A program made the translations under genes and the position numbers. Shown piece by piece: positions 20,692 to 63,881 of a stretch of 64,000 nucleotides of DNA (positions are counted from its first letter, which is position 1; every line of letters begins with the position of its first letter). The notes under the pieces were generated by a model. It worked only from the letters and a program-made list of their open reading frames with translations. It did not search any database and was not told the origin of the DNA. Source of the DNA: Pempheris klunzingeri (lineage: Eukaryota > Chordata > Actinopteri > Acropomatiformes > Pempheridae); the NCBI RefSeq assembly GCF_042242105.1, contig NC_092013.1, positions 46,001-110,000 on the forward strand, in the 5' to 3' direction.

Positions 20692-23600
20692 TTAACTCAG
20701 GTCCATGCTCTCTGTGGCCCCCACCGCCTCCCCCCCCTGGACGCTCTGGTAGATGGACGCCATGTCGGCATTGGTTCTGATCTGGTGGGCAAAGTCAGCC
20801 ATGCTGGGGCTCCTCTCCACCTCAGGCACCGCCAGCAGGGCGGCGACGGCGCGCATCGCAGAGCGCCGCAGCTCCTCCTGCTTCTCAAACTCCTGCTTCA
20901 CCGAGCCCGCCTTCACCTGGGGGGGCAGGGTAGGGTTAGCCTTAGTGGGGGTGATTCACCTTACAACAACAATACACAGCGGGGGGGGGGGCACAGTAGG
21001 GTTAGCCTTAGGATTACTGGGGTGGGGGCATACCTTATTGGGGACTGTACGTTATTGGGGGGTGTACCTTGGTGGTGCAGGTGGCTCTCAGAGGTTCTAT
21101 GAGTCGGTCCAGTCTATGAAGAACAGCAGCAGGACACAGAGAGACCAGACGGGCCAACATCAGGAAGGTCAGCATCTACACACACACACACCAGGTGAGT
21201 GTGAGCAGGTGTGAGCAGGTCTGAACAGGTGTGAGCAGGTCTGAACAGGTGTGAACAGGTCTGAACAGGTGTAAACAGGTCTTAATAGGTGTGAGCAGGT
21301 GTGAGCAGGTCTGAACAGGTCTGAACAGGTCTTAAAGGTGTGAGCAGGTGTGAACAGGTGTGAGCAGGTCTGAACAGGTGTGAACAGGTCTGAACAGGTG
21401 CAAACAGGTCTTAATAGGTGTGAGCAGGTGTGAGCAGGTGTGAGCAGGTCTGAACAGGTCTTAAAGGTGTGAGCAGGTGTGAACAGGTCTGAACAGGTGT
21501 GAACAGGTCTTAAAAGGTGTGAGCAGGTGTGAACAGCTGTGAGCAGGTGTGAGCAGGTGTGAGCAGGTCTGAATAGGTCTGAACAGGTGTGAGCAGGTCT
21601 GAACAGGTATGAACAGGTCTTAAGGTGTGAGCAGGTGTGAGCAGGTGTGAGCAGGTCTGAACAGGTCTTAAAGGTGTGAGCAGGTGTGAACAGGTGTGAG
21701 CAGGTGTGAGCAGGTCTGAACAGATGTGAGCAGGTCTGAACAGGTGTGAACAGGTCTTAAAAGGTGTGAGCAGGTGTGAACAGGTGTGAGCAGGTTTGAA
21801 CAGGTCTGAACAGGTCTTAAAGGTGTGAGCAGGTGTGAACAGGTGTGAGCAGTGAACACTAAGTGCATGGAAAACCCAGCAGCGGTTAAACGGGCGAATG
21901 AGCTAGTGGCCTGACACATTAACGGGTTAACAGGCTAACAGGTTATCAAGCTAATGGGCTAAAAGGCTAATAGGTTAACGGACTAACAAGTTATCAGGCT
22001 AACAGGCTAATGGTGGGACCAGGAGGACAGAAGTCTCTTCCACTCTGCGGGGGGTGTCGTGGTATAAACCTCATAGGTAAGGTCTGAGTGAAAGTAGGTG
22101 ATTCCACAGTGGGATGCTGCTGGTCTCCACCTACCCTGATGTCGTAGTGGTCTTTGAGCCCCTCCTCCACGTGGTCCAGGAACTGGAGGACGTCCAGCCC
22201 GTCCAGGCAGCTGTCCAGCAGCGTGTACATACACTCGAACGCCGCTTTACGCACATCCAGCCCATCATCTACCGTGTGTTTGAAGGGTCCCATCTCCACC
22301 TGCAGCTCACAGACACACCTGTCAGCACAGAGCATAGCAAACCCCCCCCCCACACACACACACACACACAGACACACAGACACACAGACACCCACCTCTC
22401 TAATCAGATCCTTCCTAATCTGGGTCTCCCTGTACAGGTGAGGCAGCACTGTTGCTAGGAGACCGCGAATAAGAGATGGCTTGTTGTGAGCCACAGAGTT
22501 AAACATTACCAGCGCTACACGGCGCACATTGATGTCCTCATCCTGCAGCGTCCTCAGGAAGTCACCTGACAGAGGGAGACAGGACACCACTGCTGGTTGT
22601 GTGTGTGAGAGAGACAGCTGTTATTTCGCTCTCTTCAAAGCCACCAGACTCCATTCACAAGAACACTAATTTTGTACATTTGGTGTTTTAAAGAGTTAGT
22701 TTGGATCCAACACAATGTTTGTGTAACACATAATAACATAAAGTACCTGATGGAGGCAGCAGCAGAGCAGCAGCTCTAAAATCCCTGTTTTAGTGAATGT
22801 AGTCTGGTGTGTGTGCTGTTTGTGGTTAAACCAAAAGGATCTTCCAGGTCTCTCTCTGTAGGGATCCTTTCAATGATGCTGTCACACACTTAGAATAACA
22901 CTCTGAGCCTGTCAGTGGATCAAACAAGCTCTTTTAGTGGACCTACTGTGATCAGGTGCAGTTGTCCCAAAGGATCACGTTGCTGAGGTGATCTACTGGA
23001 CCAGTTCCAACACTTTTACTACCTACCAGTCATTTACACACCAGGATGTGGACAGAGAGGACCCAGGGTTAGGCTGGTTTGGTGCCTACCTATGCAGTCC
23101 CTCAGCAGTGGGTCTATGGGAGCAGGCTGGTCCACTATGGTGAACTTGACAGCCGTCACCACGGTGCTGCGAGCCAGAGGAGAAGCTGTGAGGAGGCAGG
23201 ACATCAGATTTATTTTAATTTGGTGTTTCTTTATTAAACTGACCTTCAATAGAACAATGGAAGAAGGAAAAACTCTCCATCATCATCATCATGCTCTCTG
23301 CTGACAGTGGTCCAGTGGAACTGAGGACTCACTCAAGTCAATTAATCAATTAGTTGATTTGGTCAATAAAGTAATAATAAATATTTGATGTCAAACGTGT
23401 TCTCGTCCTCAGTGACACGAAACCCAATCAGTCTGGGCTGTGACTCTGATCAGCAGGCTGATCCTGATCAGCAGGTTGAGTCTGATCCTGATCAGCTGGC
23501 TGATCCTGATCAGCAGTGGAGGATGTCTGCCCCCCCCCGTCATACCGGCATCCAGCTGCTGTCTCAGGCGGGGTAACAGCTGGGCGGGGCTCACCAGCGT

Positions 23601-26231
23601 CAGTTTACCCAAACACTCAGCCACCAGGTTCCTGGTCCCCTCCTCCTCACCCTCACAGTGCTGCACCAGCAGGGACCAGATGGACTCCACATGGACCCTC
23701 AGACCACAGAGAGGACCAGCACTGGAGGACAGGAGGAGGAGGAGGAGAGAAGGAGAATGGCTTAACCAATGGTATAAGAGTTGTGGGGAGGTCTGTGGGT
23801 GTGTCCCTGTTTAAAGGAGCAGTCTGAATTTCTGCTGATCTGTGTCTCATTAAAACAACAGATGTGAGTGATAATGTAGTTGTAGTCTTCATTATGGACG
23901 ACTGGTGACATCCCTGAGGACTCACCTGAGGACATCTCTGAGGGAGTTGAGCAGCAGGTACTGTCGGCGGGGCTGGGACAAGATCTCTTTCATCAGGAAG
24001 GGCAGGTAGTCGTCCAGGCTGCCCACCGCCATACTGCCCAGAGCGCAGGATGCCGCCGTCTTCACCTGGAACCACAGATCAGTCACAGAGGAAGAGGACA
24101 GTAATGACCTGCTCTTCCTCTCTATCTAATAACGTGTCGTCTGGTTACTAAGGTGTTGGCTGGTCACTAACGTGTCGTCAGTTTATTAACATGTCGTCAG
24201 GTAACTAACGTGTCCTCTGGTCACTAATGTGTTTTCTGGTCACTAACGTGTTTTCTGGTCACTAACGTGTCGTCAGTTTATTAACGTGTCTTCTGGTCAC
24301 TAACATGTCGTCTGGTCACTAACGTGTCGTCAGTTTATTAACATGTCGTCAGGTAACTAACGTGTCCTCTGGTCACTAATGTGTTTTCTGGTCACTAACG
24401 TGTTTTCTGGTCACTAACGTGTCGTCAGTTTATTAACGTGTCTTCTGGTCACTAACATGTCGTCTGGTCACTAACGTGTCGTCAGTTTATTAACGTGTCT
24501 TCTGGTCACTAACATGTCGTCTGGTCACTAACGTGTCGTCAGTTTATTAACGTGTCTTGTGGTCACTAACATGTCGTCTGGTCACTAACGTGTCGTCAGT
24601 TTACTAACGTGTCTTCTGGTCACTAACGTGTCGTCAGTTTATTAACGTGTCGTCTGGTCACTAACATGTCTTCTGGTCACTAACAAGTCGTCTGGTCACT
24701 AACAAGTCGTCAGTTTATTAACGTGTCTTCTGGTCACTAACGTGTCGTCAGTTTATTAACGTGTCTTCTGGTCACTAACGTGTCGTCAGTTTATTAACGT
24801 GTCGTCTGGTCACTAACGTGTCTTCTGGTCACTAACGTGTCCTCTGGTCACTAATGTGTCGTCAGTTTATTAACGTGTCTTCTGGTCATTAACGTGTCCT
24901 CTGGTCACTAACGTGTCGTCAGTTTATTAACGTGTCGTCTGGTCACTAACGTGTCTTCTGGTCACTAACGTGTCCTCTGGTCACTAACGTGTCGTCAGTT
25001 TATTAACGTGTCTTCTGGTCACTAACGTGTCTTCTGGTCACTAACGTGTCCTCTGGTCACTAACGTGTCGTCAGTTTATTAACGTGTCTTCTGGTCACTA
25101 ACGTGTCGTCAGTTTATTAATATGTCTTCTGGTCACTAACGTGTCGTCAGTTTATTAACGTGTCTTCTGGTCACTAACGTGTCCTCTGGTCACTAACATG
25201 TCTTCTGGTCACTAACGTGTCGTCAGTTTATTAACGTGTCTTCTGGTCACTAACGTGTCCTCTGGTCACTAACATGTCTTCTGGTCATTAACGTGTCGTC
25301 AGTTTATTAACGTGTCTTCTGGTCATTAACGTGTCGTCAGTTTATTAATGTGTCTTCTGGTCACTAACGTGTCGTCAGTTTATTAACGTGTCTTCTGGTC
25401 ACTAACGTGTCCTCTGGTCACTAACATGTCTTCTGGTCACTAACGTGTCGTCAGTTTATTAACGTGTCTTCTGGTCACTAACGTGTCCTCTGGTCACTAA
25501 CATGTCTTCTGGTCATTAACGTGTCGTCAGTTTATTAACGTGTCTTCTGGTCATTAACGTGTCGTCAGTTTATTAACGTGTCGTCTGGTCACTAACGTGT
25601 CGTCTGGTCACTAACATGTCTTCTGGTCATTAACGTGTCGTCAGTTTATTAACGTGTCTTCTGGTCATTAACGTGTCGTCAGTTTATTAACGTGTCGTCT
25701 GGTCACTAACGTGTCGTCTGGTCACTAACGTGTCTTCTGGTCACTAACGTGTCCTCTGGTCACTAACGTGTCGTCAGTTTATTAACGTGTCTTCTGGTCA
25801 CTAACGTGTCTTCTGGTCACTAACGTGTCCTCTGGTCACTAACGTGTCGTCAGTTTATTAACGTGTCTTCTGGTCACTAACGTGTCGTCAGTTTATTAAC
25901 GTGTCTTCTGGTCACTAACGTGTCGTCAGTTTATTAACGTGTCTTCTGGTCACTAACGTGTCCTCTGGTCACTAACATGTCTTCTGGTCATTAACGTGTC
26001 GTCAGTTTATTAACGTGTCTTCTGGTCACTAACGTGTCGTCAGTTTAATAACGTGTCTTCTGGTCACTAACGTGTCGTCAGGTTACTAACGTGTCGCCTG
26101 GTTATTAACGCGTCTCCTGGTTTTTAGTATCGACATGTGAGCAGGTCTCCTGTGCTGAGGAAGGCAGTGGGATACGGCTGAAAGGTCTGGATTGTGTGTC
26201 TTGGTTCTGGTTGCTCAGTATGGCTTTTGCT

Positions 26232-26275
<44 letters not shown>

Positions 26276-27636
26276 CACCTCACCTCCTCGTTGGTGGAGG
26301 AGATGGCCTCCAGGATGACTCCCTGCACCTCCTTACTCCCTCCAAGACTGCCACTGCGCCCCACTTCCCCCAGACTGAGCAGAGCGAGGACCCGAGCGGA
26401 CTCTGGAGATCCAGGACTCTTCACCTGGGGATGGAGGGGGGGCACAGTGAGACTGGAGGAGACAGACACAGTTACCTGTAGACAGGTGAGCGCAGACCTG
26501 TTGGATGAGGCCGGCCACCGTGTTCGGAGCCTCTTTGGGACACGAGGAGCACAGCGTGGCCACGCAGCGGGCCACCGACTGGTACGACTGCCTGTGGAGG
26601 ACGGCGCCGTCTGCTGGGGGCCGACCGCCGAGGAAGGGCTCTGTCAGGGACCTCAGCAACTGGCTGGAGGGGGGGTGGCAAAAACAAATAACTTTATTTG
26701 TCAGAAACACCACATGAGACTCAAAAGAATTTGAGCCTAATCAGCAGTCAAACGGCACAAACACACACACTGTTCCCAGCAGAACACACACACACTGGGG
26801 ACATCCAGGCCTGAACACACCCGTCTCACCTGTAGCTCAGGTTACTGCTTCTGGACTGAACCAGAGCCTGCAGGAAGTCCAGTATGGCTGCCAGTGCCCC
26901 CCCCTGAAGCAGGGGGGAGTGGACGAGCGCAAAGACCCCCGGCAGCAGGGAGGAGCTGATCTTAGTCAGAGACGATGGGCAGGCTCCGGCCATGCAGGTC
27001 AGCAGGGAGATGGAGACCTGAGCAGAGACACGGGACAGGAGTTACCTCCTGATGGCGCCGACACACAATTGATCACCTGTGTGGTAAAACAGTACCTGTG
27101 AAACATGCATGTCGCTGTCGTCCACCAGAGCAGGAAGCTCACTGAGAACAGGCTCCAGGGCCGCCACTTTGATGCTGGCGCCATGATGTGTGACCATCGC
27201 AGTCAGACACGCCAACGTGGCGAGCTTCAGAGCCCGCTGGTTCTTCCTCAGGAAGGACGCCAGCAGAGACAGAGCCTCGGTCAGGACGGACGCCAGGCTG
27301 ATCTGGAGACGAGAGGCAGAGGAGAGACGTCCTTCATCAGCCTGGAGGCAGGTGTCCTGCTCCCAGTCTGATGGAGAGTCCCTCACCTTTCCAGGACTCT
27401 CCAGAGGGCAATTAAGGGGTCTTTGGATCGCTAACGTTAGCGTGGAGCTGAGGAGGAGGAAGGCTAACATTTCATGGAACAGACCAATCACATCGCACCA
27501 CCGCAAGCAGGACCTGCTCCTGTAATTTAGTAAATTCCCTGACTTTCCCTGTCTGGAATAGACTTCTCACAATTCCAGGACTTCCACGACCTGTGGGTAC
27601 ATGAAAAGGTGAATCTATGATGGTGTTGTCTCTCTC

Positions 27637-27695
<59 letters not shown>

Positions 27696-30600
27696 GTCTG
27701 TCTCTCTCTCTCTGTCCAACCTCCACCCAACACGGACCCCTGCAGAAGCCGCCCACATTGATCCTGGGTCTGTTCCAGGTTTCTTCCCGTTAAAGGGGAG
27801 TTCTTCCTCCACTGTGTCCTAATATAATATCTGATGCTGCTCTGTGGGAATTCTTGAATCCTTAATGTTGAATTCCTGAATCGTTGGTCTCTCTAATTAA
27901 ACAGTTTGGTCTAGACCTGCTCTTTATGGAAAGCGTCTTGAGATAACGCTGTTATGAATTGGCGCTATATAAATAAAGATTGATTGATTGAGTGATGCTG
28001 TTGTCATGGTGACGGTGGGACTGAACCTTCAGCGGGGAGGCAGAGATGAGCGTCAGCATCCGGACCGCTGTCAGTCGGGTGATCTCATTCTTCAGCCTCT
28101 CCAGGAAGATTGCCAGAATGCCTGGCAGCTCCGCCCCTAGGTGGTCACCAAGGTGACACACCATGTGACCCATACAGGAAATAGCCCTCTCCTTCACTTC
28201 CTGGTCAATGTCTGTCGCTTTCAGCTTCTTCAGGGTCACAGAAAACACCTGGAAAACACAGACACCTGTTCACACACCTGTTCACACACCTGCCCTCACA
28301 CACCTGTCTACACGCACCTGTTCACATGCCTGTTCACTGGCTGGTTAACTAACTCTGAACGCTGTTAGGACACCCACCTGTCCTGGTCCTGATAAATTGA
28401 TAAACGGTGAGGACAGAGGGCACGGCAGCCCCCTCATGCCTCACCATCGTACCTCTCCAACAAACGGTTTGGGGTCGAAGCCTCCCATCGCCGTCTGTCC
28501 CTGCGGCCTCATCACTTTGACCAGCTGCTGGACAACCAGCAGAGCTTCCGAGCTGATCTTATAGAAAGAGTCGTCCACACAGGCCGCCACCGGGGGCAGC
28601 AGCGCCTACAGGGACACGGGACAGGGGCCAACACACCCAACCAGACTCCATTTAAAAAACAGTCATTTTAACTCACACAACTTTGCAAGTGTTTTAGAGG
28701 AGGTTCAGAGGAGGATCAGAGGAGGATCAGAGGAGGTTTAGAGGAGGTTTAGAGGAGGTTCAGGGGAGGATCAGAGGAGGTTTAGAGGAAGTTCAGAGGA
28801 GGATCAGAGGAGGTTTAGAGGAGGTTCAGAGGAGGTTTAGAGGAGGTTCAGGGGAGGATCAGAGGAGGATCAGAGGAGGTTTAGAGGAAGTTCAGGGGAG
28901 GATCAGAGGAAGTTTAGAGGAGGTTCAGAGGAGGATCAGAGGAGGTTCAGAGGAGGATCAGAGGAGGTTTAGAGGAGGTTCAGAGGAGGTTTAGAGGAGG
29001 TTCAGGGGAGGATCAGAGGAAGTTTAGAGGAGGTTCAGAGGAGGATCAGAGGAGGTTCAGAGGAGGATCAGAGGAGGTTTAGAGGAGGTTCAGAGGAGGT
29101 TTAGAGGAGGTTCAGGGGAGGATCAGAGGAGGTTTAGAGGAGGTTCAGAGGAGGTTCAGAGGAGGATCAGAGGAGGTTCAGAGGAGGATCAGAGGAGGTT
29201 TAGAGGAGGTTCAGAGGAGGATCAGAGGAGGTTCAGAGGAGGAACCTGTATGTGAGGCTGAAAGGCGTGAGGAGGGAGGGAGCGGAGGAGGACGTGGATG
29301 AAGGACAGAGCATCGATCCTCATGGTGGACGAGGTCGACCTGTCGGACAGTGAGAAGATGACACCTGGGGGGGTGAAGGAGGAGAGAGAGGAGGGGGAGG
29401 TGAAGAAAAAAACTGAGATGACTTCTGATGCAAAGGAATGAAAATGTGTACCTGGTATGAGGACAGGTGTGTGTGGCTCCAGTTCTCCAGGTACAGTGTG
29501 AACCAGCTCAGTGAGCAGACTGAAGCAGCCCTGACGAGACCTGACGCTCCTCTCTCTCAGCTGCCTGTGGAGAGTCCTCACGATCACACACACCTGGACA
29601 CACACACACACACACACACAGACAGGAGGCGTTAGTCACACCTGTCCTATCATCCTGTCCTTTCGCTGACCACCGTGTCCTTCTCTCCTCCTGACCTTTA
29701 ATCTTCGTCTACCTGTTTCTTCAGCACACCAACTGCCGGCTCCTCCTCGCCAGCGCTCGTCCCAGCCGCCATGAGGCCGCGGTGACTCGTGCCCGCCCGG
29801 GTCTGCCTCAGCAGGGCGGAGAAGGCGCCGAAGACATCGGCCCTGACGTTCTCCTCGCGCTCCTTGAAGCGGGCTAGCAGGGCGGGACCGATGGAGGCGT
29901 AGAAGGAGACCAAGAGGTCGCGGCGGGTGCTGATCAGCGCCTCCAGACACCTGACAGAGGAGCGCCGCACCTTCCAGCTCAGGTCGTCATCGTCGCTGTA
30001 CTCATCATCAGACTCTGGGAGGAACACAGAGGTCTTTCTCCTCACCTTCAGCCACTGCACACATGAGCTTAATGTCCTCATCTGTCTGTGTCATACATGA
30101 CACTCTGCTCACCTGAACACGCTAAAGACACGCTACAGACACGACACCCTGTCGTGATAACTATGAAACTCTACTTCAGCCAGCAGCTACAACTAGTTTA
30201 AAAATTCACACTCATTATTCTAACCCTGACCCTCCGACTGAGTGATTGACATGGAAACATGTTAACCCCATGAAAACAGGCCCCACCACAGGGCGTGTTC
30301 TTAGCGTGTTCCTGTCTAGACTGCTCTAGAATAAAAACAAACAGAGGATTCATTCCTCCTGCAGCAGGAATCTCAGACTTCAGTCTGGACGCTGTGCTGC
30401 AGGCCGATGACGTCACTAAATTACATTATGAGCAAAACAAACACAGACTTTAAGAGTCTGTAGTGTCTCCAGAGTAAAGGTGTGTGATGGTGAACCAGCC
30501 CCCCCCCTCAGCATCCATTGGTACCAACCACATCAGCCAGCTGGTCACCAAGGGGTTAAATAACGCTCCAGAGTCAGGCTGCATGTTGGGGAGGGAAAAA

Positions 30601-40225: not shown

Positions 40226-43921
<3,696 letters not shown>

Positions 43922-46068: not shown

Positions 46069-48275
46069 ATGAGTCTCAGTCGTACCAAGCGGATCAGCTC
46101 CAGTAACTCGGTCCGGAGCAGCGGGGGCTCCAGGAGGCTGAGCGGCTTCGGTTCGGGTCTGGGGGGGTTCAGCGGTGTCTCCCTGAGCAGCAGCTCCCTG
46201 TATGCAGGCACCAACGGCCACCCCCCCGGCCTGGGCTCCCCGCTGGCGACTCTGTCGGTCAACAAGAGCCTGCTGGCCCCCCTGAACCTGGAGATCGACC
46301 CCACCCTGTCCATGAGCCGAGCCCACGAGAAGGAGCAGATCAAGAGCCTGAACAACCGCTTCGCTTCCTTCATAGACAAGGTACACATGGGGGGGGGGGG
46401 TCTAAAAGTCTAAAATGTTTTTGCTGATCAGTCAAACCTTCAGTGAGGAAATGATGACGTCATGTTGATCAATGAGGGTAAAACTCACAGGATGAATGAA
46501 TGAAGTGACTCCACCCTGATGAACACATGAATGGTCATATGGTCACATCTAAATACCAATAGATGCCTGATGATGACAGAAATAAGTGAAATCAATCCTG
46601 TGCTTCTGGGAGGATTCGCTGCTTTTCTCTGTCGAACCGTCACAGATTTGGATTAGAGCTCTGAGAGCGCCGTCTGTTTCCTGAGCTACAGGCTCTCATC
46701 CCGCCGTCACGTCATCAACAATAAATGCTACACACGGTGATACTTTCAGACTAGAAGCTTGTTGAGAAACGTGTCAGGTGACGCTCACAGTTTGGCCCCC
46801 CACCCCCACAGACTGCATTCACCTGTGTCGTTACTGTGAAACATGGATCGGAGCGGCGTTGTGAGGCCTCAGAGGTCACAGCGCCGACACAGTTTGACTT
46901 TGTCCCGTAGAGTCTTTAGCGTGGGGTGGACGCCATGTTTGGCTGCTGAACATGTTCCCACAGAGGGAGGGGGGCTGCTCTGAGATAACGTCCGACATCG
47001 ATACCTGACCCAGGAAACATCTCCGCTTTCTCACGGCGTCGCTGACACACTCACAATGGAGCCTTTGTTTGACATGAGCGGAGATGCTGTTCATGCCCCC
47101 CCCCCGCAGTCTAAGGAGGACATTCACATGTGAGACAAAAGAAAACCAGAGAAATAAATAGATGAATCAGAGACACACATGAAGCAACATGACATGACCC
47201 TGTATCAACAACATACATGTGCAAATATCGCTGTGACAGAGGTCGAGCCAGTAAAGTGTCCATGAGTTCAGGAATATAAACGCAGTGCACAGAAATAATA
47301 CGACACAGTGACGGTGGGGGTCAGGACATCGGTGATAATACGACACAGTGACGGTGGGGGTCAGGACATCGGTGATAATACGACACAGTGACGGTGGGGG
47401 TCAGGACATCGGTGATAATACGACACAGTGACGGTGGGGGTCAGGACATCGGTGATAATACGACACAGTGACGGTGGGGGTCAGGGCATCGGTGATAATA
47501 CGACACAGTGACGGTGGGGGTCAGGACATCGGTGATAATACAACACAGTGGCGGTGGGGGTCAGGGCATCGGTGATAATACGACATACTGCCAGCATTGG
47601 TACCAATGAGCTCCAATAATTAAATTTAAATTTTAATTTAAATTAAAACTCAAGTCCATCATGGACAACCCCTCTCACCCCCTGCATGAGACTGTGGGGG
47701 CCCTCAGCAGCTCCTTCAGCAGCAGGCTGAGGCCCCCACCCTGCAAGAAGGAACGCTACTGCAGGTCATTCCTCCATCAGCCATCAGACTCTTTAACAGC
47801 AGCATCACTGGCTGATGTTAACACCCTGAGAAACAGTCCACAGTCACTCCATGGTAGCTGATCGGCACTGTTCTTTTCATCTCTGTACTGTGCAGTTATG
47901 TTCATAGTGTAAATATTTATTTATTCTCATTACAATTTATATTTATTTACTATTGCTTATTTTTCTACTGTTGTTTATTTTATTTCTTTTCTCTCTATTA
48001 CTGCTTATCTCTGCTGCTGCTGTAATATGTAAATTTCCCCCTATGGAGGATCAATAAAGTCTATCTAATCTAATCTAATCTAATCAATAGAGCACCACAG
48101 TGTCAGCAGCTGCACCACTGAGAAAATACTAGTAAATACTAGAACTATACTAGATAATAATACTAATACTAGAAAACATAGATTTGACCTCATTTCACAG
48201 CCTCTTTGTCTGAACACAAACCAGATTTACTGTCCAACCTTCGTTTTGCCTTCATTGTTTTTTCACTGTTACCAT

Positions 48276-48323
<48 letters not shown>

Positions 48324-50606
48324 GCATATTGATGGTTATTATTTTAGTTGCTGTTTGTTTGTGCACCCCCCCCCCCCCCCCGATGCTCCTCATTCAGGCT
48401 CAGACACCACAAAACTGCTAAAAGTAACAACAGTAACAGACAGAGAACAGTAACTGACAGGAAACAGTAACAGACAGAGAACAGTAACTGACAGGAAACA
48501 GTAACAGACAGGAAACAGTAACTGACAGGAAACAGTAACAGACAGGAAACAGTAACAGACAGAGAACAGTAACAGACAGGAAACAGTAACAGACAGGAAA
48601 CAGTAACTGACAGAGAACAGTAACAGACAGGAAACAATAACTGACAGAGAACAGTAACTGACAGAGAACAGTAACAGACAGAAAACAGTAACAAACAGAG
48701 AACAGTAACTGACAGAGAACAGTAACAGACAGGAAACAGTAACTGACAGAGAACAGTAACAGACAGGAAACAATAACTGACAGAGAACAGTAACTGACAG
48801 AGGACAGTAACAGACAGAAAACAGTAACAAACAGAGAACAGTAACTGACAGAGAACAGTAACAGACAGGAAACTAACTGACAGGAAATAGTAACTGACAG
48901 AGAACAGTAACAGACAGGAAACAGTAACAAACAGAGAACAGTAACAGACAGGAAACAGTAACAGACAGGAAAGACTAGCAGGGAGCTTTCCTCCTATCGA
49001 GGAGGAATCATCATGAGGGAGGAAACATCATGATGGGGGAGGACCAGCTCCTCAGGGGGGGGCATTTAAATGGGAAACGTTTTTAGTGGCGCTGCAGAGA
49101 AAACGGAGACTTTAGGCCTTAAAGAGAGCCAAAAACTCAGTGAATGCAGGAGGGATTTAAAGTGGCCCTTAAACGCTGAATCGGTGGTTCCACTGGATAT
49201 TTGAGCTACCTGTCCCATTTCGGTGCCATTGAGCTGGCTGTAACCTGATAAAGCGGGTCGCCGCGGTGGCCTGGTTGTGTGGGGTTACTGTGAACGGCGG
49301 CTTTGTGCCGACCGGAGGAGGATAATAGGAGGTGGATACGCCTGGCTGCAGGCAGGAAACACGAGCCGAGCTGATACTCAGCGATGCTGTCTCTTTAACC
49401 TCTGACTGTCCGGACATTATTATCCAGGGATGATGTAAAACGGAAAGTTCCACAACTTTTCCAGGACTTTCTAGGCCTAAAATGTTGAATTTTCATGAGC
49501 TGTCGCTGTAGCCTGACAGACTTTAGGTCTTACCTGGTCCGTTAGTCGACGTTGTATCAGTTTTTCATTGATTCAATGGACAGAAGGCCGCTAACGTTAG
49601 AGCGGAGCAGAGAAGGAGGAGGGATGCTAACATTTCATGTCACTGACCAATCAGAACGCACAACAAACAGGAAACAACCTGAAGAAGAAAATAAATAACG
49701 TTAGAGAACATATTTGTTTGGTGGAAAAGCACATTTTAATTTTTTGACAATAAACCTGAATTTCCGGGACCCGCTCCAATCATTTATTATATTCCCTGAC
49801 TTTCCTTGCCTGGAATAGACTTTTCTTCATGACTTTCCAGGAATTTCATCACCAGCCTGTTAATAAATGCTATAAAATATATTTTTTAAAATGTCAGAAA
49901 ATTGTTGAGGTGACACCTTGTATGTTCAACGAAGATATTTTATTCAGGAGTACTTCTTAAAACGTTGAGCATCACTGACGCCAACATGGACTCCTCTGTA
50001 GTCGCTCTCTCCATCTTTCCCGATTAATTCTTCGGAGTCATCAGATCGGTCCGCTGTCCAGTTTCAGAGGTAGAATAAATAAAACAGACTAACAGCATGA
50101 AATGGGTCCAGTTTCAGAAGCGGAACACACTTTATATTTTGGATCAGATTGATATGAAGGTCTCACACTGAAACAGGAGCTGGAGGTCGGATTCTGTTAG
50201 CATGATAAGGTGTGTTAACTGGTGCCAAACATTCAGCTTCCACTGACGTCTGTAAGAAAACTTCTGTAATAAGTTTTACAGGAACAGTCAACGGTGAACA
50301 AAGAGATGCATTATGGGATCTGTTCTGTTCAGGTGCGTTTCCTGGAGCAGCAGAACAAGATGCTGGAGACCAAACTGGAGCTGCTGCAGGGCCAGGGGGT
50401 GGGCCGGTCCAACGTGGAGCCCCTGTTCGAGGCCTACATGGCGGGCCTGCGGCGCCAGATGGACCTGGTCAACAACGACAAGACCAAACTGGACGGGGAG
50501 CTGAGGAACATGCAGAGCCTGGTGGAGGACTACAAGCACAAGTAAGGCCACCAGGGTAGGCAGTGACATCACCGGGGTGGTCAGTGACATCACAGGGTGG
50601 TTAGTG

Positions 50607-50666
<60 letters not shown>

Positions 50667-53600
50667 CACAGATATGAGGATGAGATAAACAAGAGGAACA
50701 ACCTGGAGAATGACTTTGTCATCCTGAAGAAGGTCAGCACACACACACACATACAGAAACACAAAAACACACACACAGAAACACAAAAACACACACACAC
50801 ACACACAGAAACACAAAAACAAACACACACACAGAAACACAAACACACACACACACACAGAAACACAAAAACAAACACACACACAGAAACACAAACACAC
50901 ACACACAGAAACACAAAAACAAACACACACACAGAAACACAAACACACACACACAGAAACACAAACAAACACACACAGAAACACAAACACACACACAGAA
51001 ACACAAACACACACACAGAAACATAAAAACAAACACACACAGAAACATAAAAACAAACACACACAGAAACACAAAAACAAACACACACAGAAACACAAAA
51101 ACAAACGCACACAGAAACATAAAAACAAACACACACAGAAACACAAAAACAAACACACACAGAAACACAAAAACAAACGCACACAGAAACATAAAAACAA
51201 ACACACAGAAACATAAAAACAAACACACAGAAACATAAAAACAAACACACACAGAAACATAAAAACAAACACACACAGAAACATAAAAACAAACACACAG
51301 AAACATAAAAACAAACACACAGAAACACAAAAACAAACACACAGAAACACGAAAATAACACACGAAACACATGCGTGCTGTCAGCCTGAGCTGCAGTTTG
51401 TGGTTGAGAATCACGTGTCATGTGACTGTGCTAACATGCTAACAGACATGTAGCTCAGAGACCGTCATGGCTGCTGACTGTTGAACCTCCTTGCCCCCCC
51501 CCCCCCCCCCCGTCAGGACGTGGACTCGGCCTACCTGGTGAAGGCCGACCTGGAGGATAAGGTCGGCGCCCTGACTGATGAAATCAACTTCCTGCGTAAC
51601 ATCTATGAGGAGGTCAGAAACCTTTTCCTTTGTTGCTGTTCAGACTCAGACAGGACGATGTTTCCCACTGGGACTCTGCACGGACACTTTACCAGTCAAC
51701 AGACACCAGTGGTTTCACCTCTGTTTTCTGTCTGTGGTCAAATTCTATTAACACGTTTAACCCTCTGGTGTTTGTTTGTAACAGTGAGTGTTTTCTAGGT
51801 GATGAGGGTTCTTCGTCGGTCTCTATGTGGATGTGTGTTGTTGGTCTGTGTTAGTCAAACATTTGCCTGACTGGAGCTGCAGTGATTCCATCCTCAGAAA
51901 ACTGATCACAGATTAATCATTCAGTCGTTTTTCAAGAAAAAATGTCCAAACATTCAATGGTTCCAGTAAACTGAATCTAAAAGTGTTGAACGTTTGAAGG
52001 ATCAGAAGACGAAGTGACTTTGAGCTGTCGGACATCCTGATCATCAGATCAGTGAGAGCACCAGAGTAGGTTCAATACTGACCAGGATTAAAACCATTAA
52101 AAACACAAAATACTTCTGCCGGTAAAATGATCTTCAGCAGCTCAGCAAAGAACTGACGAGGTTCTTCAACCAATGGAAGTTAAGTTAAAGACAAACCTAT
52201 GAAAACATTTAATAGTATTTTTGTCTCTTCATTAAATAACGTGGCTCCTACAGAGCTACACACAATGTTAAAAGTCTCATTATAACGTCGTATTCAGCTC
52301 AGCTCTGTTCAGTTTGAGGTCTGATCTGGTCCAGTCTGGTCTGATCTGGTCCAGTCCAGTCTGGTCTGGTCTGGTCTGATCCAGTCCAGTCTGGTCCGGT
52401 CCAGTCTGGTCTGGTCTGATCTGGTCCGGTCTGGTCCGGTCCGGTCCGGTCCGGTCTGGTCCAATCTGGTCTGGTCTGGTCTGGTCCGGTCCGGTCTGGT
52501 CTGATCCGGTCTGGTCTGGTCGTGTCTGGTCTGGTCTGGTCCGGTCCAGTCTGGGGGGTTACTTCATGGCGGTGACTTGGCGTCCCCTCTGTCTCCGGCT
52601 CCAGGAGCTGCGGGAGCTGCAGGCCAGCATCAAAGACACTTCGGTGGTGGTGCAGATGGACAACAGTCGCAGCCTGAACATGGAGCAGATCGTGGCCGAG
52701 GTCAAAGCCCAGTACGAGGAGATCGCAGCCCGCAGCCGCGAGGAGGCTGAGGCCTGGTACAAGAGCAAAGTAAGAACGGGTTAACAGACCTGGGTGAACA
52801 TGTCTGGTCTGGCCCATTATGATCCATCATGACACATTAGGATCCAACGTGATCCATCAAACTATTATGATCTATTATGATCCATCACAATCCATTATGA
52901 TCTATTATAAACCTTTCTGATCCATTACGATCCATTATAAACCATTATGATCCATTATAAACAAATTTGATACATAATGACGCATAATGTATGATCCATT
53001 CTGATCCATTCTGATCCACTGTGATCCACTGTGATCCATCACATCAGCCTACACTCAGAGACGTTACACTGAACTCACGTCTGGGCTGTTATAGACGATC
53101 AGGAAGGACTCGGATTGTTAACGACTGGAGGAAGCAGAGAGTTTGTTGTACTGCCATCATGTCCTGCCGAGTACTTTGACCTGTAATAAACATGTTAGAA
53201 ACTGGACACACCCCCTGTTTGTAAAATCCTAACATGAAAAGTGAAAAGTGACTTGCAGTTCAGGAGGAAGTCTGAATCAGTAAAAGGTACCACATGTCCC
53301 TCTGGGGTGGAGTGGAGTAACGGCTAGAGTTACATTCAAGTAGCTCAAACTAGCTCTGAACCATCACCAACTGTGATTTTTGTCTTGTTTAGCACATTTA
53401 AATGGTCCGTCCCCACAGACATGGTGTGTTTTATATCAGCCAGACAGTAGAGTTCGGTAGAGTCCGCTGGAGCACAGCTCAGTGACCGCTGGATAAGTTC
53501 CGGTCCGTCGCTGAGGTTTCTGTGGTCCTCATAATGAGCTCTCTGAGAACAGTACATCCTCCGTCTGTCTGCAGTTCGACCAGATGTCGGTGCAGGCCAG

Positions 53601-55498
53601 CCAGTTTGGAGACGAGCTCCGCGTGGTGAAGGCCGAGGTGGCCGAGGTCAACCGTCTGATCAGCCGCCTGCAGAGCGAGATAGAAGCCGTCAAAGCACAG
53701 GTAGGACACCTCCGGCCTGCGGTTTTCCAGGTGATTCATACCCAGCGTGACACCTTGTTTGCCCCCCCTGCCCCACAGCGAGGCGGTCTGGAGAACCAGC
53801 TGGCCGAGGCAGAGGAGCGAGGAGAGCTGGCTGTGAAAGAGGCCAAAGCTCGAACCAGAGACCTGGAGGACGCTCTGCAGAGGGCCAAACAGGACATGGC
53901 CAGACAGCTCCGGGAGTACCAGGTAAGTCTGGGACAGGTGAGGGTCTTAGACAGGTGAGGGTCTGAGACAGGTGAGTGTGAGACAGGTGAGTGTGGGACA
54001 GGTGAGGGTCTGTGACAAGTGAGTGTGAGACAGGTGAGTGTGGGACAGGTGAGTCAGGAACAAACTTCCTCTAGTAAAACTATGTGTTGGCCCAGCGTAG
54101 CGGAGGCAGGAGGAAATCTAAACTGTATTACAGCAGAGATGTACAGGTACAGTAGGTACAGGTGTACAGGTATGTGTGCACCCCATTCATTCAGTGGAGG
54201 AGGCGCTCAGACATCCCTCATAAAATGCTCTTGATAAAATACATGATATAACCAGGAAGTAGAGGTAACGGTATGTTTTCACTCTGCTGAGAGGACGGTT
54301 TTCCAGTTGTAGTTCATATGTCATGTGACCATGGTGTAGGTCATATCACATTAACATTTTACTTCTGCTGACTGATTTATACTTCAAACATCATAACCCT
54401 AGTGGGTCCACAGAATCACAGCATCCCTGCAGTGCTCTGATCTAAACACCCTGAGCATCGTTTCATTGTTCCCCCGCAGGACCTGATGAACCTGAAACTG
54501 GCTCTGGACATTGAGATCGCCACCTACAGGAAGCTGCTGGAAGGAGAGGAGGACAGGTGAGGAGGAAGAGGAGGTGGAGAAATGGTGGTTGTGTCTCCCT
54601 CAGCTATCTGTGTCTCACTGTGTCTTTTCTTCTTCTGCAGACTGGGACAGCAGTCCATCCTCAACATCCAAGCCGCCTCCAGCTACAGTAAGTAACACTT
54701 GGAGGGAGGACATACCTGTCCTACCTGCTCTGAGGAGGACACACCTGTCCATTAACCCAACACCTCTATAAATCATCTAAATGATCTCTTTTGGTACCAA
54801 TAGTTGTAGACAGTCCTCCTGTAACACTAACAGTCCTCCTGTAACACTAACAGACCTCCTGTAACGGTAACAGTCCTCCTGTAACAGTAACAGTCCTCCT
54901 GTAACGGTAACAGACCTCCTGTAACACTAACAGTCCTCCTGTAACACTAACAGACCTCCTGTAACGGTAACAGTCCTCCTGTAACAGTAACAGTCCTCCT
55001 GTAACGGTAACAGACCTCCTGTAACACTAACAGACCTCCTGTAACACTAACAGTCCTCCTGTAACACTAACACACCTCCTGTAACACTAACAGTCCTCCT
55101 GTAACAGTAACAGACCTCCTGTAACGGTAACAGTCCTCCTGTAACACTAACAGACCTCCTGTAACACTAACAGTCCTCCTGTAACACTAACAGACCTCCT
55201 GTAACACTAACAGTCCTCCTGTAACACTAACAGACCTCCTGTAACACTAACAGTCCTCCTGTAACAGTAACACATCTCCTGTAACACTAACACACCTCCT
55301 GTAACACTAACAGTCCTCCTCATCTTTGACCTTCTAAATCAGTTCTAGTCTCTTTGCTCTGACCTGAATGATCTCTCTCTCTCTGCAGGTAGTCGCAGCA
55401 CTAACGGGTTCCCCTCCAACAGCAGCTCCTCTCCTGCTCCAAAACTACTGATCAAGACCACGGAGACCAGAGACACACACAGATACACCACTCACTGA
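46069..55498 (+). CDS. krt8-like: Type II keratin, krt8-like, with one extra intron
   Basis: Ten exons: 46069-46380, 50333-50541, 50672-50732, 51517-51612, 52605-52769, 53575-53700, 53779-53922, 54480-54556, 54641-54687 and 55389-55498, total 1347 nt, 448 residues plus TGA. Exon sizes 209, 61, 96, 165 and 126 are those of vertebrate type II keratins. The usual 221-nt exon is split here into 144 plus 77 nt. The protein pairs with type I keratins to form epithelial filaments. It has a Ser/Gly-rich head (1-90), the rod start [19 protein letters not shown] with [12 protein letters not shown], and the rod end [27 protein letters not shown] before the rod is simple-epithelial type II (K8-like). The tail is short: after [11 protein letters not shown] it reads THRYTTH and stops, lacking the usual DGxVVSES ending. 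The stop lies in the first unit of a minisatellite. Confidence 0.92.
46381..47283. other. Keratin intron 1, 5' part without features
   Basis: First 900 bp of the 3.95-kb keratin intron 1. G-run after the donor (46389-46399); nothing else recognised. Confidence 0.5.
47296..47590. repeat. 40-bp minisatellite, ATAATACGACACAGTGACGG
   Basis: About 7.3 nearly identical 40-bp units (ATAATACGACACAGTGACGG plus TGGGGGTCAGGACATCGGTG) in keratin intron 1. High identity suggests recent expansion. Confidence 0.97.
47640..48085 (+). mobile_element. Non-LTR retrotransposon 3' end (Rex/RTE-like)
   Basis: The plus-strand frame reads [20 protein letters not shown], then [15 protein letters not shown], the degenerate C-terminus common in fish LINEs. 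The 3' UTR ends GGAGGATCAATAAAGTCTAT with a CTAAT pentamer tail at 48061-48085. 5'-truncated. Confidence 0.7.
48275..48323. repeat. (AATC)n microsatellite
   Basis: About 12 uninterrupted AATC units in keratin intron 1. Confidence 0.95.
48425..48975. repeat. AACAGTAACAGACAGGAA minisatellite
   Basis: About 30 units of 17-18 bp (AACAGTAACAGACAGGA, AACAGTAACTGACAGAG) in keratin intron 1. Open frames on the minus strand are artefacts. Confidence 0.95.
48976..50332. other. Keratin intron 1, 3' part without recognised features
   Basis: About 1.35 kb of non-repetitive intron. A CACTGACCAATCAGAACGCA segment at about 49640 resembles part of cand2 intron 13 (about 27480), hinting at an old dispersed repeat. 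No coding signal. Confidence 0.4.
50607..50662. repeat. (GT)28 near keratin exon-3 acceptor
   Basis: The GT run occupies nearly half of the 130-nt keratin intron 2 and ends ten bases before the exon-3 acceptor. Confidence 0.95.
50735..51362. repeat. ACACACAGAAACACAAAAAC minisatellite
   Basis: About 27 units of 20-24 bp (ACACACAGAAACACAAAAAC with AAAC) in keratin intron 3, starting two bases after the exon-3 donor. C-poor on the plus strand. Confidence 0.95.
51613..52309. other. Keratin intron 4, first 700 bp
   Basis: Unique intron sequence. No feature seen. Confidence 0.5.
52310..52556. repeat. Pentamer/decamer repeat GGTCTGGTCC
   Basis: About 48 pentamers of the GGTCY type (GGTCT, GGTCC, with AGTCT and GATCT variants), ending about 45 bp before the keratin exon-5 acceptor. 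Confidence 0.93.
52815..53045. repeat. GATCCATTATGATCC repeat
   Basis: Degenerate 10-bp units (GATCCATTAT, GATCCACTGT, AAACCATTAT) in keratin intron 5. Confidence 0.85.
53931..54055 (+). repeat. 16-bp repeat of splice-donor-like units
   Basis: Eight units of GACAGGTGAGTGTG or GACAGGTGAGGGTCT follow the genuine exon-7 donor (CAG|GTAAGT at 53920-53928) with a 16-bp period. Seven keep CAGGTGAG and one has CAAGTGAG. Four read CAGGTGAGT, a perfect donor consensus. Confidence 0.93.
54811..55320. repeat. 20-bp minisatellite, CAGTCCTCCTGTAACACTAA
   Basis: About 25 units of exactly 20 bp in the last keratin intron, with CAGTCC/CAGACC/CACACC and AACACT/AACGGT/AACAGT variants. The strict period suggests recent homogenisation. 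Confidence 0.97.
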
Positions 55499-56900
55499 GA
55501 AACACATGAGACACACACACTCACTGAGAAACACATGAGACACACACACTCACTGAGACACACATGAGACACACACACTGAGACACACACACTCACTGAG
55601 ACACACTCACTGAGACACACATGAGACACACACACTGAGACACACACACTGAGACACACACACTCACTGAGACACACTCACTGAGACACACTCACTGAGA
55701 CACACACACTCACTGAGACACACTCACTGAGACACACTCACTGAGACACACACACTGAGACACACTCACTGAGACACACTCACTGAGAGACACACACTCA
55801 CTGAGACACACACACTCACTGAGACACACACACTGAGACACACACACTCACTGAGACACACTCACTGAGACACACACACTGAGAGACACACACTCACTGA
55901 GACACACACACTGAGACACACACACTCACTGAGACACACTCACTGAGACACACACACTGAGACACACACACTGAGACACACACACTGAGACACACACACT
56001 CACTGAGACACACACACTCACTGAGACACACACACTGAGACACACACACTGAGACACACACACTCACTGAGACACACACACTCACTGAGACACACACACT
56101 GAGACACACACACTGAGACACACACACTGAGACACACACACTCACTGAGACACACACACTCACTGAGACACACACACTGAGACACACACACTCACTGAGA
56201 CACACACACTGAGACACACACACTCACTGAGACACACACACTGAGACACACACACTGAGACACACTCACTGAGACACACACACTCACTGAGACACACACA
56301 CTGAGACACACACACTGAGACACACACACTGAGACACACTCACTGAGACACACACACTGAGACACACACACTCACTGAGACACACACACTGAGACACACA
56401 CACTCACTGAGACACACACACTGAGACACACTCACTGAGACACACACATTGAGACACACACACTGAGACACACACACACACTGAGACACACACACTCACT
56501 GAGACACACACACTGAGACACACACACACACTGAGACACACTCACTGAGACACACTCACTGAGACACACACACTGAGACACACACACTGAGACACACTCA
56601 CTGAGACACACACACTGAGACACACACACTCACTGAGACACACACACTCACTGAGACACACACACTCACTGAGACACACACACTGAGACACACACACTGA
56701 GACACACACACTGAGACACACACACTCACTGAGACACACACACTGAGACACACACACTGAGACACACACACTGAGACACACTCACTGAGACACACACACT
56801 GAGACACACACACTCACTGAGACACACACACTGAGACACACACACTCACTGAGACACACACACACACTGAGACACACTCACTGAGACACACACACAGATT
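55485..56900. repeat. 1.4-kb ACACACTGAG / ACTCACTGAG array in keratin 3' UTR
   Basis: More than 100 units of GACACACACACT, with or without CACT before GAGACAC, beginning at the keratin stop codon. The TGA of CACTGAGA is itself part of the unit. With the poly(A) signal at 57353 the array would form most of the 3' UTR. Confidence 0.95.
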
Positions 56901-62260: not shown

Positions 62261-62778
62261 GTGTGTTCAGGGGGAGGTGGTCCACTGGCTGGCGTGCTCT
62301 CTGTATGCAGCCTGTAGGAAGAGCTCCACCCCGACGGTGGGGAGAGGCGTGATGGAGGGAAACTGTGTCTCCCTCACCAGGATCCTCCGCACCTCCAAAC
62401 TCAGGTCAGTCCCTCCACCTGACTACGACCCCCCAAACACCTGACTACTACTATTAGATTGCATTGTATTGTATTGCTGTCAGTGAGGAGGGAGGATTAG
62501 CTGGGTTTTCTGGAAGTGTGTTTGTGTGTGGTTCTGGTCCTCACCCGTCCATCCCCCATCTCTCCCCCAGTCTGATCCAGTTCTTCTCTAAGATGAGGAA
62601 GTGGGCCGACATGTCTGGCCTCCCCCACCACTTCAGGCAGCGGATGCAGCGGCTGGAGCGCAACTTCGAGGTTTCCACCGTCATCTTCCGCAAGTTTGAG
62701 CCCATCTTCATGGACCTGTTCCAGGACCCTCAGGGGGGGGGGGCGCCACGGCAACCACGCAGCAGGAAGCACAGGCAT

Positions 62779-62868
<90 letters not shown>

Positions 62869-62890
62869 TCCCAGTGTAACACAGAGTGTG

Positions 62891-62974
<84 letters not shown>

Positions 62975-63881
62975 TCTCAGCAGGCGGCTGCCCTGTCACA
63001 TCAGTGATGTGTTCAAGTTCTGCTGGACTCTGTTCGTCTACACCAAAGGTACCAAGAACCAGGCTCACAGGGAGGGGTTGTTTAGGACTAGTAACCAAAC
63101 AGGCCTACTAACTAACCAGACCAGTGACTGAATAGTGGACCGGTGATTAGAGTTAGGCAGCAGGTTAGCGAATGTGCCATGTGGGTGACACACCTGTCTG
63201 TGCAGGTAACTTCCGCATGATCGGTGACGACCTGGTGAACTCGTACCACCTGCTGCTCTGCTGTCTGGACCTGGTGTTTGGAAACGCTCTGCTGTGTGGC
63301 CACAGGAAGGACCTGATCAACCCCGCCTTCAGAGGTCAGCGGGGGGGGGGGGACACTTCTTTATACAGACTGATACAACCATGTATGTTATCTGTGTGTC
63401 TCTGATGCGTCTCTGGAGTGTGTGTGTGTCTCTCTGATGTGTGTGTGTCTCTGGTGTGTTTGTGTGTAGGTCTTCCTGCTCCATACTGTGCTGACAGCCA
63501 TGTCTCTGAGGATGATCCTCCCCCGTGTGTGTTGGAGAGGTTGTGTGAGCTGCATGATGGGCTGGTGGTGGAGGCCAAAGGCATCAAACAACACTACTTC
63601 AGACCCTACATACACAAGCTGTTCCACACTCAGGTACACACACACACAGGTACACAGGAACACACACAGGTAAACACACACACAGGTAAACACACACACA
63701 GGTACTCACACACAGGTACACTCATACGCAGGTACTTACACACACACAAGTACCGACATGTCTCCTGTCACCTGGGCTGAGATAAACTCCTGTTCTTTGC
63801 TCCTCTCTGTTGTCAGATCCTGAAAGGCAACGAGGACCATTTGACTGAACTGTTGGATCCTCAGAACTTCATCGATAACAA
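60899..63881 (+). CDS. rbl1: Retinoblastoma-like protein 1 (p107), N-terminal part
   Basis: Exons 60899-61060, 62271-62404, 62571-62774, 62984-63048, 63206-63334, 63470-63633 and 63817-63881 give 307 codons plus two bases, then the gene leaves the window. RBL1 is a pocket protein that with E2F4/5 and the DREAM complex represses cell-cycle genes. This part is the cyclin-fold N-terminal domain: ALCQELNMDEQTATEAMENF, HWLACSLYAACRKSS, GRGVMEGNCVSLTRILR, SLIQFFSKMRKWADMS, RLERNFEVSTVIFRKFEPIF, NFRMIGDDLVNSYHLLLCC, LCELHDGLVVEAKGIKQHYF. VMEGNCVSLTRIL and FEVSTVIF fit p107 better than p130. A second in-frame ATG (codon 14, GGATGG) has a better Kozak context. Intron 3 appears to be GC-AG, and its acceptor is CAGCAG. 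Exon 3 contains eleven consecutive G (62733-62743). The pocket domain lies beyond the window. Confidence 0.93.
61031..61169 (+). repeat. Tandem duplication of rbl1 exon-1 end and donor
   Basis: The block ACGGCCATCTGGAACACCTA CACCCTGGAG plus the following GCCCTCAACTAACCTG begins at 61031 and again at 61110 (79-bp period). The first copy has the donor GAG|GTAGCC. In the second the bases are GAGGGAACT, so the GT is lost. Confidence 0.95.
61180..61718. repeat. (CTGA)n / TGACGTCCTCTGA minisatellite, rbl1 intron 1
   Basis: About 20 units of variable (CTGA)n followed by CTGACGTCCT. Each unit carries TGACGTC, seven of eight bases of the cAMP response element. Confidence 0.95.
61889..61966. repeat. 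(AC)39 microsatellite, rbl1 intron 1
   Basis: 78 bp of perfect AC repeat. Confidence 0.98.
62780..62973. repeat. (AC)43 - 27 nt - (TG)40 inverted repeat filling rbl1 intron 3
   Basis: AC run 62780-62865, spacer 62866-62892, TG run 62893-62973. The two runs are complementary, so the RNA of this 209-nt intron can fold into one long hairpin between its donor (62775) and acceptor (62983). Confidence 0.97.
63352..63382. repeat. Single unit of the stk4 intron-2 minisatellite in rbl1 intron 5
   Basis: GGACACTTCTTTATACAGAC TGATACAACCA matches the stk4 array variant at 11956-11988 except for one missing base. It is followed by unrelated TG-rich DNA. Confidence 0.8.

Follow-up and report, generated by a model that had tools for sequence, protein, structure and literature searches.

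Was the intron, unexpected by comparison with mammals, that splits the rod-end exon of a type II keratin gene, probably a fish one, created by tandem duplication of an AGGT-containing segment, or did a repeat grow on the donor of an intron that was already in place? The question is raised by the ladder of splice-donor copies with which this intron begins, and it was addressed on a window of 64,000 nucleotides, i.e., the whole stretch of DNA analysed here.

A type II keratin gene with a split rod-end exon

The window harbors a complete, K8-like keratin gene. Its exons, and the intron under study, are the following:
46069-55498, plus strand: complete type II keratin gene, K8-like, 10 coding exons, 448 aa
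46069-46380, 50333-50541, 50672-50732, 51517-51612 and 52605-52769, plus strand: keratin exons 1-5, spliced open frame
53575-53700, 53779-53922, 54480-54556, 54641-54687 and 55389-55498, plus strand: later keratin exons, spliced open frame
53779-53922, plus strand: exon 7a, the first 144 nt of the rod-end exon, ending in REYQ
53923-54479, plus strand: intron 7, 557 nt, phase 0, GTAAGT...CCCCGCAG
54061-54479, plus strand: non-repeat remainder of intron 7, compared with the window by blastn
54480-54556, plus strand: exon 7b, 77 nt, second part of the rod-end exon

All nine introns are of the GT...AG form. The Pfam search retrieved Keratin_2_head in exon 1 (E 5.9e-7, above the family cut-off) and, on exon 1 alone, Filament (E 6.8e-6, below the whole-protein cut-off). 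Over the whole rod, the protein is best matched in the PDB by vimentin, with 209.3 bits across 295 aa (E 8.1e-61); keratin 5 (128 aa of the rod, 150.6 bits, E 6.5e-43) and keratin 1 (120 aa, 128.2 bits) are matched over shorter chains, with more bits per residue than vimentin. This, together with the keratin head match, led us to take the gene as a type II one. The Pfam search covered 30 hand-picked ORFs out of the 203 listed; thus, genes in the window may have been missed. The ORF at 62458-63108 (plus strand) matched DUF3452 (E 1.4e-18), a family that occurs in retinoblastoma-like proteins. Directly 3' of the keratin stop codon lies a CACTGAGACACA-type repeat of about 1.4 kb (55500-56890), probably within the 3' UTR.

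Exons 3, 5 and 6 of type II keratin genes usually measure 61, 165 and 126 nt, respectively. From exon 3 onward the lengths in this gene are 61, 96, 165 and 126 nt, followed by 144 and 77 nt; hence, the first four members of the type II pattern (61, 96, 165, 126, 221) are present and the 221-nt exon is split, in spite of which the protein features of the type II family are found. In the accessible part of PMC5573215, exon 7 of equine KRT85 is given as 221 bp and a type II exon 4 as 96 bp; apart from KRT8, KRT76, and KRT74, the type II genes of human, dog, and horse are described as conserving the lengths of exons 3-7. The first-pass annotation had named 221 nt as the usual length of the rod-end exon, which is borne out for mammalian type II keratins by that source. 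The KRT8 exception matters, because the type II keratins of zebrafish are described as closest to mouse KRT8 (PMC8733776, seen in part). The division into 144 and 77 nt after REYQ, at a CAG|G proto-splice site, was likewise read correctly, since 53779-53922 and 54480-54556 join in frame.

With the donor CAG|GTAAGT at 53923 and the acceptor cccccgcag (last base 54479), keratin intron 7 is, as judged from its sequence, a working spliceosomal intron. Probing the window with 54061-54479 by blastn retrieved nothing below E 0.076 except the segment itself, and intron 7 as a copy of another sequence of the window was rejected on these grounds. The Rfam search of the whole window gave no match at the gathering score, so that no intron-hosted RNA was found. 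The search for orthologues with the exon 7 protein gave 28 pattern matches in viral contigs and 324 in genome contigs, and that with the keratin rod 13 in viral contigs, none of them a relative; these are non-animal collections, and therefore silent on the age of the intron. Among the literature matches listed, in a coverage outside which most subscription papers fall, no paper on intron positions in fish type II keratins was evident by its title or the start of its abstract.

A tandem array anchored on the splice donor

The 5' part of intron 7 is organized as follows:
53920-54060, plus strand: donor-anchored tandem array, the donor unit and eight copies (TRF interval 53920-54062)
53920-53934, plus strand: unit 0, the last three exon bases and the donor CAG|GTAAGT, predicted to be in use
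53935-53951, plus strand: unit 1, decoy donor at 53938
53952-54045, plus strand: units 2-4 (a 47-bp block) and their copy, units 5-7, 45/47 identical
53955, 53972, 53987, 54002, 54019 and 54034, plus strand: decoy donors of units 2-7
54046-54060, plus strand: unit 8, with a degenerate tail and a decoy donor at 54049

Downstream of the donor stand eight copies, of which seven carry CAGGTGAG and four CAGGTGAGT, exactly as had been proposed. The unit size of 16 bp given at the same time has to be corrected: five copies measure 15 bp and three 17 bp, so that 16 bp is only an average. The donor itself represents a ninth unit of 15 nt, and the lengths from 53920 are 15, 17, 17, 15, 15, 17, 15, 15, and 15 nt (for the last unit, whose end is indistinct, 15 was assumed). 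According to TRF, the array has a period of 15, 8.7 copies and 82% matches; it starts 3 nt inside exon 7a and represents about 25% of intron 7, its 5' part only. Minisatellites are tandem repeats with units of about 10-100 bp, and the copies detected by TRF in intron 7 are arranged head to tail as in such repeats. The array is not due to chance: its 141 nt contain eight CAGGTRAG, including the donor, whereas 2000 dinucleotide shuffles averaged 0.13 and never exceeded 2.

The donor unit is two edits away from units 4 and 7. When 15-mers with at most two mismatches from unit 4 were searched for on both strands of the whole window, the donor unit, four array units, and a single further site, at 21192, were found. 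This site is the start of another CAGGTG-type repeat. Moreover, unit 0 differs from every other unit at intron position +3.

Tandem arrays and donors across the window

Tandem repeats make up 33% of the window, and eight out of nine keratin introns contain or touch an array (in the case of intron 8, the repeat is weak and short, and most of it belongs to the exon). The proximity of arrays to donors was evaluated post hoc, on this one window, for 28 of the 29 annotated introns: nine of the keratin gene, 13 of CAND (21176-29451, minus strand), and six out of seven of SEC13 (40453-43810, plus strand), the SEC13 intron at 42367-42495, which has no TRF array, being left out. The exon ends of CAND and SEC13 were set by eye from alignments. 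The assignment of the latter to THOC3, suggested by its first WD40 match, was rejected, as the gene proved to be SEC13.

Arrays starting within 10 nt of the donor were found in 8 of the 28 introns, versus 2.05 expected under random placement (TRF score 40, P 0.0001); the corresponding values are 6 versus 1.79 at a score of 60 (P 0.0006) and 3 versus 0.64 at a score of 100 (P 0.019). Near acceptors, there are 3, 3, and 2 of 28 at scores 40, 60, and 100, respectively (3 versus 2.05 expected), which is not significant. With a looser limit of 30 nt, a score of 100 and the 22 introns remaining without SEC13, which contributes nothing to the donor-adjacent count, P is 0.20. The donor falls within the TRF interval in four of the eight donor-adjacent arrays (offsets -3, 0, -15, and -18); in two of the eight (donors 23925 and 54557), the repeat is weak and short and spans the exon end. 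According to the 28-intron test, the keratin array shares its start at a donor with several others. It is only in keratin intron 7 that the following units are strong donors in number, the other seven cases having at most one decoy scoring at least 9. If arrays flush with donors should prove to be a genome-wide feature, this would link the birth of repeats to the position of splice sites, and would be a warning against taking such arrays as traces of intron birth.

Other repeats of the window were observed in the CAND region. At 28696-29245 (minus strand), within a CAND intron with donor GTTCCT, a minisatellite with an 11-bp unit begins at about the fourth base of the intron and covers 547 of its 640 nt. 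At 28257-28337 (minus strand), a CAGGTGTG ladder, similar to the keratin array (76% over 75 nt), ends 8 nt before the acceptor at 28249; in the first 150 nt of the intron harboring it, four sites outscore the intron's own donor. A 10-bp unit, GTGTGAACAG, is repeated about 66 times at 21192-21852 (plus strand), forming a CAGGTGTGA ladder opposite the last annotated CAND intron. Lastly, the short repeat at 23907-23943 (minus strand) straddles the CAND donor 23925: 12 nt from the end of the exon reappear, with one change, just within the intron.

Predicted splicing consequences of the ladder

The first donor matches the consensus CAGGTAAGT at 9/9 positions and the decoys at 7-8/9, four of them being CAGGTGAGT and three CAGGTGAGG. 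By a donor score table, no decoy ranks above the first donor. Decoys scoring at least 9 in the first 150 nt of the 28 introns number eight in keratin intron 7, four in the CAND intron at 28452, and one in that at 22395, with none in the other 25. The duplex energies with the U1 5' end, computed for unmodified RNA, are -14.1 kcal/mol for three decoys and -12.2 for one, versus -12.1 for the first donor. Since four of the eight decoys pair with U1 at or below -12.1, the strength of the donors alone does not settle the choice among them, and the passivity of decoys that are not weak in U1 pairing is an assumption. As for accessibility, the folding estimate of the probability of being unpaired ranges from 0.001 to 0.089 over the nine units, with the lowest value, 0.001, at the first donor and a region median of 0.007; this modelled accessibility does not favour the reading of the copies as passive, and it is too crude to be weighed.

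In translation, the frame stays open with the decoy at 53938 only, at the price of an added VSLGQ; use of any of the seven others would lead to a premature stop, and so would the retention of intron 7. The exon-proximal perfect donor at 53923 is probably the one in use. Nine donor-grade sites spaced 15 or 17 nt apart offer a natural experiment on the choice made by the spliceosome among rival donors, set in a gene whose product would be lost through most of the wrong choices.

Possible scenarios for the origin of the array and of the intron

In the AGGT model of Rogers, as described in the accessible text of PMC4974935 and PMC3443670, both splice sites sit in copies of one exonic AGGT segment. 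The first-pass annotation had seen in the array an intron either created or lengthened by the duplication of such a segment. Lengthening agrees with our data, in that the donor lies within the array and a block of 47 bp was copied at 45/47; creation does not. Indeed, the acceptor at 54479 is located about 420 nt beyond the end of the array (54060-54062), in non-repeat sequence; the spliced junction is AG|GA and not AG|GT; no AGGT was found in the 221 nt of exon 7; and the 30-nt flanks of the two intron 7 junctions are identical at 6/30 and 11/30 positions, with CAG|G alone in common. By eye, the repeat unit and the exon end have only CAG in common. Furthermore, the first residue past the junction is acidic in the three aligned chains (E in keratins 1 and 5, D in vimentin), which makes a GT at the junction unlikely at any time. 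The position of the acceptor, the AG|GA junction, the lack of an exonic AGGT and the mismatch of the flanks thus imply that the features defining the model are missing here. What speaks for it is the presence, at the start of intron 7, of a tandemly copied unit containing AGGT, the existence of a vertebrate case tested in vivo (PMC4974935, PMC3443670, in the parts available), and the CAG|G at the intron site, a proto-splice sequence that is weak evidence because exon 7 harbors nine MAG|R sites. The creation of intron 7 by tandem duplication of an AGGT-containing segment is, in our opinion, highly improbable, and the array is not proof of how the intron arose.

We consider it probable, instead, that intron 7 was already in place and that its donor seeded a minisatellite, whose copies would be mainly passive. 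This scenario is supported by the confinement of the array to 53920-54062, by the abundance of repeats in the window and by the donor-adjacent arrays of 8/28 introns. Replication slippage or unequal exchange would have copied a 15-nt stretch from the donor of the existing intron; a variant of the unit two nt longer (17 bp) would have arisen, and blocks would then have been duplicated again. The 47-bp block copied at 45/47 points, in our reading, to such a stepwise minisatellite growth and not to a single founding event. The exon side cannot expand, since the conserved rod end is encoded there. Splicing would occur at the perfect first donor, 53923, the copies being mainly passive by-products with donor-grade sequence; were the first copy used now and then, VSLGQ would be inserted, and any later copy would lead to a premature stop. 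On internal evidence, the order of events would be intron first, array second. Counting against passive copies is the CAGGTGAG core, which has fewer changes than the unit tails and could hint at constraint (window-corrected simulation, P ~0.10, on 12 changes counted by hand).

In another scenario, the copies would act as alternative donors yielding variant or unproductive keratin mRNA, as in human IFI6, where two downstream repeat units are used as donors (PMC4526556, in its accessible part). The decoys, CAGGTGAGT in four cases and CAGGTGAGG in three, would be suitable for this role, half of the eight forming with U1 a duplex no less stable than that of the first donor; moreover, the first decoy is the sole one keeping the frame, so that a poison switch is possible. 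Such a functional ladder is nevertheless unlikely, given that a perfect 9/9 donor stands first, that 7/8 decoys lead to a premature stop and that the first one adds five residues to the conserved rod end. Alternatively, the array might have preceded the intron: a CAGGTG-type minisatellite would have entered exon 7 with its flanking DNA, being spliced out from the start by a donor recruited from the repeat. Similar CAGGTGTG repeats do exist elsewhere: one at 28257-28321 on the minus strand, which matches the array with E 4e-6 (75 nt, 76% identical), and one starting at 21192 on the plus strand. Against this scenario stand the acceptor side, which has no repeat, the rest of intron 7, which has no clear relative in the window, and the divergence of unit 0 from all the others at intron position +3, though the latter could be explained by selection on the donor. 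We regard this order of events as quite unlikely. A bolder scenario, rather unlikely in our view, would have minisatellites preferentially born at, or growing up to, 5' splice sites throughout the genome, with the keratin donor becoming a repeat unit; in that case, either the intron would have been recruited from a donor-bearing repeat, or a polymorphic nine-donor ladder, with a copy number varying between individuals, would tune splicing. To return to the minisatellite seeded on an existing donor, in all likelihood the array of intron 7 represents a commonplace expansion of a repeat, for which a human gene offers a precedent.

Comparison with known systems

That gene is IFI6 (6-16), whose minisatellite provides multiple splice donor sites according to the title of a paper present among the reference entries of PMC3618361, PMC2572611, and PMC4526556; in the accessible part of the last one, the use of two downstream repeat units as donors is said to result in three mRNAs. 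As in IFI6, the units of the keratin array carry splice-donor sequence. The IFI6 array presumably also includes the exon's own donor. The two genes are unrelated, though, and the use of repeat donors is reported in IFI6, whereas that of the keratin decoys is hypothetical; a further difference is that 7/8 keratin decoys would truncate the protein. A donor-providing minisatellite is therefore already on record, and by analogy the keratin array would join that kind.

With the introns attributed to AGGT duplication, including that of the potato RdRp gene, the keratin intron shares a splice-signal segment in tandem beside an intron boundary. In contrast to the model, where both splice sites derive from the duplicated segment (PMC4974935, PMC3443670, as far as available), the keratin repeats are found on the donor side only.

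Lastly, intron gains are known in ray-finned fish from serpins, melanocortin receptors, and slc26a1/a2, in medaka, stickleback, pufferfishes, and other Eurypterygii (PMC2746811, PMC12357937, PMC3151243, in the parts available), and most gains in serpins and melanocortin receptors are described as lying at MAG proto-splice sites (PMC2746811, PMC3151243, likewise). Keratin intron 7 resembles them in interrupting a conserved gene at a CAG|G proto-splice site; it differs from them in that the serpin, melanocortin receptor, and slc26a1/a2 gains have been dated by means of orthologues.
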